From Maricaulis maris (GTDB taxonomy: Bacteria > Pseudomonadota > Alphaproteobacteria > Caulobacterales > Maricaulaceae): DNA of 64,000 nt. Of the stretch, positions 13,394-16,831 are shown piece after piece. The DNA lies in assembly GCF_036322705.1 (NCBI RefSeq), contig NZ_AP027270.1, positions 2,481,501 through 2,545,500 of the forward strand, in the 5' to 3' direction. The notes below the pieces were generated by a model. The model was not told the DNA's origin. It made no database searches and saw nothing but the letters and a program-made list of their open reading frames with translations. The position numbers and the translations under genes are program-made. How positions within the stretch are numbered: the stretch's first letter is position 1; every line of letters begins with the position of its first letter.

Positions 13394-14140
13394 TCAGGTC
13401 GCCCCGGGATCGCTGAGCAGAGCCTCGCTGATAAAGGCCGATGACGGCCGCCCGGCATAGCCGAGCTCCGGCGCGATCACCACGACCAGCGCCGCGTCCT
13501 GGCGGTAGGCAGCCGGGGCGTCACCGAGTTCGATCCGCACATCCTGGACCCCGCGCAGACGACGACGCTCGGCGCGCACTCCGTCAAACGCGATGGCGAT
13601 GATGTGGAGGGTATCGTACTGCACGCCAAGACCGGCACGCGGCGCAGGGGCGTATTCCACCGAGATCGAGCGGTCCAGCGCCGCCGCCATCTCGCCCGCC
13701 AGCAATTCGGCGCGCTGGCGCACCTCTTCCGGCGAGCGCGGCGCCGGGGCCAGTGAACCGGCCGGGCTGGCGAAGTCCGCGATGACACCGTCCGGTGCCG
13801 AGCTGGGGAAATAGGTCGCGCCACCAAGCCCGGTCAGGCGAATGACCTCGCGGCCGGTATCGGTGATGAAAGCGGTTCCGCCGCCGGGTGCGCGGTCCGG
13901 ATACAATACCAGAACCTCACTGTCCGGCGCGTCCCGTTCCCGCAGCAATGCCGCATCGCCGGAGCGATCGAACAGGAAGAACTCGCCGGTATCGGCACGC
14001 TGGAACCAGCCGGAGACCTGCTGCACACGTTCATTGCGCAACAGACGGTCACGCAAGGGATTTTGCATCCCGAGTGCAGCGCCTGCAGCGAGTGCGGCGA
14101 TCAGTATGGCCAAGATCCAACGGGTCATCCCGTCACGCAT
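13394..14140 (-). CDS. Secreted or membrane-anchored protein, possibly DUF4908
   Basis: This protein of about 248 aa has an N-terminal hydrophobic segment (MTRWILAILIAALAAG) that looks like a signal peptide or anchor, then an alpha/beta region with blocks FFLFDRSGDAALLRE, EVLVLYPDRAPGGG and YFPSSAPDGV. It resembles DUF4908 proteins of Caulobacterales, but I make that link from memory only. Starts at GTG 14155, ATG 14140 and ATG 14128 are all possible and none has a clear ribosome binding site. It lies downstream of phbB on the same strand, 45 bp away. Function unknown. Confidence 0.7.
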   Translation of the reverse strand: MRDGMTRWILAILIAALAAGAALGMQNPLRDRLLRNERVQQVSGWFQRADTGEFFLFDRSGDAALLRERDAPDSEVLVLYPDRAPGGGTAFITDTGREVIRLTGLGGATYFPSSAPDGVIADFASPAGSLAPAPRSPEEVRQRAELLAGEMAAALDRSISVEYAPAPRAGLGVQYDTLHIIAIAFDGVRAERRRLRGVQDVRIELGDAPAAYRQDAALVVVIAPELGYAGRPSSAFISEALLSDPGAT

Positions 14141-14185
14141 CTTGCCGACCAACACGGCAAATTTGGGGCAGACTGTGAAATCATC

Positions 14186-15784: not shown

Positions 15785-15830
15785 GCTTTGCCCGCTGTCC
15801 AAAATGCCGCATTTGCACCCAGAATCGGGG

Positions 15831-15845
15831 TTAACGTCTCATTAA
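15831..15845. promoter_or_regulatory. Perfect CtrA-type box (TTAA-N7-TTAA)
   Basis: TTAA at 15831-15834 and TTAA at 15842-15845 are separated by exactly 7 bp, the full recognition site of the cell-cycle regulator CtrA in Caulobacter and relatives. It ends 31 bp before the ATG at 15877, where a promoter would lie. Binding itself is inferred from the consensus. Confidence 0.65.
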
Positions 15846-15876
15846 GAGTTGGCATCCCGCTTGCGATGGATGAGGC

Positions 15877-16206
15877 ATGACCACGATCCGCAGCGCATAT
15901 TCTGTCCCGACCCCGACCAGCCGGCGTATTGAGCCGGCCGGCCGTGCGCGCGGTTCGCAGGATCGTCCGCCGCGGCAGGAGCGGGCCCTCGTCACTGTCC
16001 CGACCCCGCAATCGAACGAGCGCGATGGCGCCCGCTCCTTTGTACGGGCACGCCCTGCCACGGCGGAAGTCATGGTCCAGATCATCGGCGACGCCCCGCG
16101 TCGCGGCCTCAAGGCCGAGCCGAGCGAGATCGAGCGGTTCCGCCGCACCTATGCCCAGGCCAGCGAAAAGAAGACGCCGCCCCCGATGTGGGAGCGGCGC
16201 GCATGA
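15877..16206 (+). CDS. Conserved small basic protein of unknown function
   Basis: This 109-aa protein is Arg/Pro-rich in its first half and probably disordered there. It ends in a more structured segment containing AEVMVQIIGD, RRGLKAEPSEIERFRRTYAQ and MWERRA. No signal peptide, membrane helix or known domain is visible. The ATG follows a purine-rich GGATGAGG stretch. A perfect CtrA-type box lies just upstream and a 28-aa reading frame overlaps its stop (ATGA), so it may be a cell-cycle-regulated two-gene unit. I recall similar proteins in Caulobacterales but cannot name a family. Confidence 0.72.
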   Translation: MTTIRSAYSVPTPTSRRIEPAGRARGSQDRPPRQERALVTVPTPQSNERDGARSFVRARPATAEVMVQIIGDAPRRGLKAEPSEIERFRRTYAQASEKKTPPPMWERRA

Positions 16207-16289
16207 CAATCGCTGTTGCCAAGGCCCGGCGCCTCGGATTCTGGCTCGATGTGAGCCTGGGCGCCGGCCTTCTCTTCGTTCTTCTCTAG
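16203..16289 (+). CDS. 28-aa membrane microprotein
   Basis: A 28-residue frame starts at the ATG overlapping the preceding TGA (ATGA, 16203-16206). It encodes a basic N-terminus (KARR) followed by one hydrophobic stretch, FWLDVSLGAGLLFVLL, which could span or anchor in the membrane. Its TAG shares the CTAG tetranucleotide with the stop of the convergent membrane-protein gene. Coupled start, positive-inside pattern and exact stop placement support a real product, but there is no independent evidence of translation. Confidence 0.5.
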   Translation: MTIAVAKARRLGFWLDVSLGAGLLFVLL

Positions 16290-16681
16290 CCGTCGCCGCC
16301 GACCGCGAGGTCGCGACGGGCTGCCACGATGGTGACGACGAAACCGGCAACGGTATCCATCAGCGTCATCAGCGTGAGCAGGAAGAAGGTCGAGGTCGCA
16401 AAATGACCGACCAGCAGGAAGAGCGCCATGGCGATCACGAAGATCACCATCGACAGACCATGATTGATGATTGTCGCGGTGCCGGATCCGGCGGCCTTGA
16501 TGAGCTCCATGAAGAGCATGATCATGCCCAGGATGACCAGGAGGTCGCCCTTGGACAGCGGCAGGCTGCCGGACACCATCGGCACCGAGAAGACCTGTGC
16601 GCTCATGTCGGCGCCGGTCGTGTAGGCCACGATGGCGTAGATGATCACCGGAATGATAAGAAGTGGAAATACGTTGAACAT
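16286..16681 (-). CDS. Small multi-pass membrane protein
   Basis: This 131-aa protein has three or four hydrophobic segments: about residues 2-21, 46-64 (DLLVILGMIMLFMELIKAA), 73-93 and 97-118. The C-terminus is short and charged. I chose ATG 16681 because a GGGGGAGG ribosome binding site lies about 5 nt upstream; the open frame extends further but with a Gly/Arg-rich non-conserved look. No known domain is recognised. It follows the GT2 gene on the same strand after 150 bp and is convergent with the microprotein gene. Confidence 0.82.
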   Translation of the reverse strand: MFNVFPLLIIPVIIYAIVAYTTGADMSAQVFSVPMVSGSLPLSKGDLLVILGMIMLFMELIKAAGSGTATIINHGLSMVIFVIAMALFLLVGHFATSTFFLLTLMTLMDTVAGFVVTIVAARRDLAVGGDG

Positions 16682-16831
16682 GGAACCTCCCCCATTGCCG
16701 CGGCCACCCGATCTCCGGGCCTGATTGGCCGCCGTCATCCCTAACAATACGCCGTTATCCCCGCCACCGGCCATACGTCACTCTCCCCGGTTGTGAAGCG
16801 GTCGAAAGACTCGCTTCATTCAAACCATAAA

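Follow-up and report, generated by a model that had tools for sequence, protein, structure and literature searches.

A two-gene unit of the Caulobacterales with a CtrA-type box adjoining a putative sigma-54 promoter and a distribution that follows FlbD

Introduction

The described genes closest to the locus reported here are those controlled by CtrA, by sigma-54 with FlbD, and by sigma-54 with TacA; spmX is a TacA/sigma-54 gene. With genes such as spmX the present gene has a predicted sigma-54 promoter in common, and a TacA-like activator is encoded in its genome; unlike them, it is absent from the sampled genomes of its family that bear TacA and lack FlbD. Full-motif CtrA targets of Caulobacter crescentus carry TTAA-N7-TTAA upstream of the start, as the present gene does, and in the available excerpts of PMC4287350 they are described with a box near -35 and with activation, whereas the present box touches the -24 element of a putative sigma-54 promoter. 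The same excerpts give the Caulobacter RpoN motif as GGCNC-N4-CTTGC. This consensus is shared by the class III-IV flagellar promoters of Caulobacter that depend on sigma-54 and FlbD (PMC3096577, PMC4287350) and by the present gene, which likewise tracks FlbD; unlike those promoters, it has no ftr-like repeat, is predicted to be leaderless and has an abutting CtrA box. The gene lies far from flbD in its genome. According to PMC12700997, most members of Acaudatibacter as well as Phenylobacterium immobile have lost flagella, and 25 uncharacterised genes were lost alongside. The present gene has the same pattern of loss as those 25 genes absent from non-flagellated Caulobacteraceae, and may be one of them.

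Literature on CtrA together with sigma-54, RpoN or FlbD, on leaderless sigma-54 transcripts, on CtrA in Maricaulis, and on TacA, PhaR and small membrane proteins contained, at the level of titles and abstract openings, no description of this gene or of a -24 element directly adjoined by a CtrA box; supplementary tables of start sites or gene losses may list the gene.

To our knowledge, parts are still missing from the account of flagellar ejection and of the swimming-to-stalked shift. The gene described below belongs to an unannotated, order-wide family whose occurrence is linked to the Caulobacter-type flagellum. At the promoter of the gene two global regulators, CtrA and sigma-54, would meet on neighbouring sites, and a conserved microprotein is encoded in addition. 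The gene is newly proposed as a candidate component of the swimmer-to-stalk life cycle in stalk-forming marine bacteria, and these claims can be tested with standard genetics in Maricaulis maris or Caulobacter. We give slightly better than an even chance to the reading that the two genes form a unit of the programme for the Caulobacter-type flagellum and the dimorphic life cycle, expressed from a CtrA-gated sigma-54 promoter.

The whole stretch of DNA that was analysed (64,000 nt) is referred to as the window. The features considered are:

15812..15830, no strand assigned: partly conserved block, T-rich and then CC-N-GAATC-N-TGG (column conservation, 25 genomes)
15831..15845, no strand assigned: full CtrA-type box TTAACGTCTCATTAA with conserved half-sites, at -45 to -31 relative to the predicted +1
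15850..15864, + strand: putative sigma-54 -24/-12 promoter element TGGCATCCCGCTTGC, GG-N10-GC, found in 54 of 55 orthologs; RpoN gene present
15876..15876, + strand: predicted start of transcription, one base ahead of the ATG, placed from the -12 position (15864)
15877..16206, + strand: 109-aa basic, probably largely disordered protein of a Caulobacterales family, with the C-terminal core RRGLKAEPSEIERFRRTYA; pN/pS 0.30, orthologs in 69 of 137 genomes
16203..16289, + strand: 28-aa single-span membrane microprotein, in ATGA overlap with the 109-codon gene; pN/pS 0.35

A CtrA-type box adjoining a sigma-54 element

Exact TTAA-N7-TTAA occurs once in the window, at 15831-15845, with 0.03 matches expected from dinucleotide shuffles. 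As the sequence-only reading of this DNA had stated, it ends 31 bp ahead of the 109-aa gene (box end 15845, ATG 15877). The motif by itself was unconvincing as proof, since the whole genome holds 13 such boxes and 9 matches to the reversed pattern, and conservation was used instead. Both TTAA half-sites were invariant, at a constant distance to the ATG, in all 25 genomes compared (17 Maricaulis and 8 of a second genus), as for a direct CtrA target, while the seven spacer bases varied. Exact boxes were also present upstream of ftsZ (65 bp), flgI (184 bp) and a flagellin gene of the same genome, and the use of this motif by CtrA is therefore plausible here. The partly conserved block just before the box is possibly a second protein site. 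It contains GAATC (15822-15826), a GANTC site of the CcrM type that precedes the box by a few bases; a role of methylation was considered, but the site was present in only 14 of the 25 genomes.

The sequence TGGCATCCCGCTTGC starts four bases past the box, spans -26 to -12 and has the GG-N10-GC form of a -24/-12 element close to consensus. One RpoN gene was found in the genome, together with genes for enhancer-binding proteins of the GAFTGA type. Exact sites of the form GGCNC-N4-CTTGC numbered 12 genome-wide versus 7 for the reversed pattern, and others of them precede a flagellin gene and an open frame read as FliK-like (a putative name). An exact sigma-54 site (G000:C1:1111002-1111016, L047) was located 56 bp before a gene for a short secreted protein, a putative holdfast protein of the CsgA/HfaA type.

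Because the predicted +1 sits one base before the ATG, the mRNA of the 109-aa gene should be leaderless. The columns invariant in the 25 genomes were G-TTAA-N7-TTAA-N4-TGGC, TTGCGA and N10-ATG. Matches to a composite pattern of box plus promoter were found in 25 of the 137 genomes of the family, once in each and always directly upstream of an ortholog of the 109-aa gene, and its reversed control had no match in the 137 genomes; in one genome (G136) the pattern revealed a homolog that the single-sequence protein search had missed. For the wider scan we used 55 orthologs, a set that excludes six Caulobacteraceae loci (L095-L100) as well as two weak matches judged unrelated and dropped from all promoter counts (L125, L126), and accepted an element at a score of at least 9 of 11. 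By this threshold a sigma-54 element with the ATG 1-4 nt past the predicted +1 was present in 54 of the 55 (exactly 1 nt in 47), and the reversed control gave eight hits, none of them at the sigma-54 position. Sigma-54 RNA polymerase would be remodelled here by a FlbD-like or TacA-like GAFTGA activator to give a leaderless mRNA, on which translation would start at the first ATG.

In 28 of the 55 orthologs a gap of 3-4 nt separates a full CtrA box from the sigma-54 element downstream, and in 19 the box has one or two mismatches. CtrA (-45 to -31) and the sigma-54 polymerase (-26 to -12) would occupy adjoining DNA, and phosphorylated CtrA on the box would set the time of firing. The likeliest action, which we hold at about an even chance, is that CtrA delays firing because it and the polymerase compete for the -24 side. 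A protein bound against the -24 element should hinder the polymerase, and the abutment of the box on that element speaks for such hindrance rather than for a co-activating or architectural role in which CtrA aids formation of the sigma-54 complex. This second role is a strong contender, though less probable than delay: it would fit the constant gap of 3-4 bp between box and -24 element and the shift of the box by 29-30 bp, near three helical turns, in one genus; that genus, however, has a -10-like element after the box and maybe a separate promoter there. That the box has no present role is improbable in our estimate.

The sequence-only reading had proposed a cell-cycle-regulated two-protein unit. 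The sequence gives good support to a conserved two-protein unit downstream of a CtrA-type box. The putative sigma-54 promoter, the predicted leaderless start and the co-occurrence with FlbD had been missed; we infer that the two genes may be under cell-cycle regulation.

Distribution with FlbD and choice of activator

A family profile search detected the gene in 69 of the 137 genomes of the window's family (in G042 at 9e-4 only). FlbD, called by a clear score gap (5e-86 or better versus 2e-66 or worse), was present in 71 of them. Both were found in 68 genomes, FlbD only in 3, the gene only in 1 (a genome 73% complete) and neither in 65. For the second family, Caulobacteraceae (199 genomes), the corresponding numbers were 175, 3, 6 and 15, so that the gene follows FlbD in both families. 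Fisher p values were 3e-34 (137 genomes) and 3e-15 (199 genomes); they ignore shared ancestry and overstate independence, because the gene-less genomes cluster on the tree. Six FlbD-less genomes of the second family retain the gene; four of them are more than 90% complete and speak against FlbD as the activator. One genus of this family has the gene in 2 of 16 genomes, and FlbD in just the same two; the gene was also absent from one FlbD-less genome of another genus. These FlbD-less, gene-less lineages presumably correspond to Acaudatibacter and Phenylobacterium immobile of PMC12700997.

Twenty genomes of the window's family with divergent FlhA only had the gene in no case (0/20), and the link is therefore to the Caulobacter-type flagellum and not to flagella generally. 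The one genome read for gene context (G126) carried phaR and the gene as a block within a cluster of flbD-flhA-fliJ-fliI-ctrA-cheR-cheB-cheW-cheA-chpT, in which cheB, cheW and cheA were named by our own reading of the sequence only. Another (G081:C1:1914055-1914834) had a partial flhA match with a stop codon, though the gene and FlbD were both present.

Of the four strongest or longest activator matches in the window's genome, two carry a GAFTGA loop, the first resembling FlbD and the second TacA; four weak activator matches (L181-L184) were excluded from this reading. Perfect CGGCA-N5-TGCCG repeats, which may be FlbD (ftr) sites, occur at flgI and at the flagellin gene of the same genome (L190, L191). 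In these two upstream regions a CtrA box lies 149-173 bp before a sigma-54-like site. When the ftr-like repeat, as defined from flgI and flagellin, was sought at the 109-aa gene and its relatives, it was absent here and none was conserved, which argues against direct activation by FlbD; a site for an enhancer-binding protein may lie in the partly conserved block at 15812-15830.

It is rather unlikely, but worth considering, that TacA rather than FlbD drives the promoter, with CtrA repressing it in swarmers and releasing it at the swarmer-to-stalked transition; the unit would then act at the time of flagellum shedding. Such an arrangement would agree with the lack of a repeat at a gene whose genome has perfect copies at flgI and flagellin, with the TacA-like GAFTGA activator encoded there and with four FlbD-less, gene-bearing Caulobacteraceae whose best activator hit (~1e-56 to 1e-59) is as expected for TacA. 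In the excerpts of PMC4287350, moreover, Caulobacter sigma-54 starts are divided into two classes, swarmer-to-stalk and flagellar. Against TacA, six genera of the window's family were sampled with one FlbD-less genome each, and all six genomes have a full-length TacA ortholog (64-67% identity) and lack the gene. Taken together, FlbD or its programme is somewhat favoured as the activator.

Promoter types among relatives

Five of the 55 orthologs, all of one genus, have the CtrA box displaced 29-30 bp further upstream, and three have no box. Downstream of the displaced box there is a CTAA-type element that by our own reading could be a sigma-70 -10. Of the loci L127-L176, four yielded no core with the search expression used and were left out. 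One genus of Caulobacteraceae keeps the sigma-54 element and a near-leaderless start, without the box. Genomes of Caulobacter size have instead a TTAAC ... CTAG-type sequence just before the ATG, without the sigma-54 element, and most of the Caulobacteraceae relatives read have no such element at the gene; sigma-54 control is therefore not universal. The gene seems to have switched promoter type across relatives while a leaderless start was retained.

These relatives bear on whether CtrA might activate an ordinary sigma-70 promoter at the present gene, the resemblance to a sigma-54 element being incidental. The TTAAC ... CTAG-type leaderless promoter of the Caulobacter-size relatives points that way, as do the genus in which a CTAA-type element follows a box displaced upstream by 30 bp, and the position of the box itself, whose 5' end at -45 is near the -35 region reported for CtrA activation in the excerpts of PMC4287350. 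We nevertheless regard this reading as quite improbable: all 25 genomes share TGGC and TTGCGA unchanged, 54 of 55 orthologs keep the -24/-12 spacing together with the start rule, and inspection of the 25-genome alignment by eye revealed no -10-like element at the right distance from the box for the placement of a sigma-70 activator, the sigma-54 element being there instead.

A more detailed extension of the favoured reading, that of a CtrA-gated sigma-54 promoter, can be drawn. Competition between CtrA and the sigma-54 polymerase for one site would itself be the cell-cycle gate, the leaderless message for the disordered adaptor and the membrane microprotein would be made only in a narrow swarmer-to-stalked interval, and the pair would assist assembly or shedding of the polar flagellum, with the promoter type varying across the order and the leaderless start kept. 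We consider it unlikely that all of this holds together.

The encoded proteins

The nearest named relatives of the 109-aa protein were from Maricaulis maris and other Maricaulis (73-93% identity). A pN/pS of 0.30 over seven equal-length sequences indicated purifying selection. Six columns were invariant in an alignment of 18 sequences, and the C-terminal core contains five of these (R76, G77, E84, R87 and Y92). Searches of Pfam, NCBIfam and PDB with the protein family gave no profile or sequence match. The AlphaFold model was of low confidence (mean pLDDT 56.6, pTM 0.21) and had one helix at 82-97, as would fit a protein that is disordered apart from a single helical motif.

The second frame begins where the first ends: the TGA of 15877-16206, within ...GCATGACA, overlaps the ATG of the 28-codon frame, and translation of the microprotein would proceed by stop-start coupling at ATGA. 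This overlap had been pointed out from the sequence alone, as had a basic start with a single hydrophobic stretch, and both were confirmed (3 K/R among the first 12 residues, one stretch). Stop codons in close relatives had been named as evidence that would count against the frame; the 17 Maricaulis genomes in which the gene was found all have an uninterrupted frame of 26-28 codons. Among the 55 orthologs the microprotein starts with ATG in 44 (21-31 aa) and with GTG in 3, and is absent in 8, including every one of the 6 read in one genus. By eye, the hydrophobic stretch opens with Asp in 43 of the 44 ATG-started copies.

Ten of the 17 Maricaulis sequences, those of exactly 28 codons, were used for pN/pS, which was 0.35 with zero stops; six 28-codon sequences of the second genus gave 0.51. 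The other two forward frames over the same ten sequences gave 1.05 and 3.74 with 18 and 2 stops, respectively, and the reverse frames gave 1.44, 0.69 and 2.27 with 2, 4 and 7 stops. The frame thus has the properties of a membrane microprotein, namely purifying selection on a short frame with one hydrophobic span. That it is untranslated, its conservation reflecting an overlapping 3' end or an RNA element, is very unlikely: absence from 8 of 55 orthologs would suit this, but the codon-position bias, the pN/pS (0.35 versus 1.05 and 3.74), the 18 and 2 stops of the other forward frames (ten sequences; one reverse frame had 0.69 with 4 stops), the length changes that preserve the frame and a convergent gene that covers just the last 4 nt all tell against it.

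By inference only, the 109-aa protein, probably disordered but for a short helix near the C-terminus, would most likely serve at the flagellar pole as a regulator or an adaptor, and the microprotein would be its partner in the membrane.

The convergent gene (16286-16774, - strand) encodes a 162-aa membrane protein with no Pfam match, its stop region overlapping the microprotein by 4 nt. Two other genera have a similar protein in the same convergent arrangement with the gene (L185 16972-17448, L187 14572-15150). On the other side, a DUF4908 protein is encoded at 13394-14155 (- strand), two genes before the phaR-side genes of the window, and a DUF4908 gene (L185 14825-15616) neighbours phaR and the ortholog of the 109-aa gene in G126.
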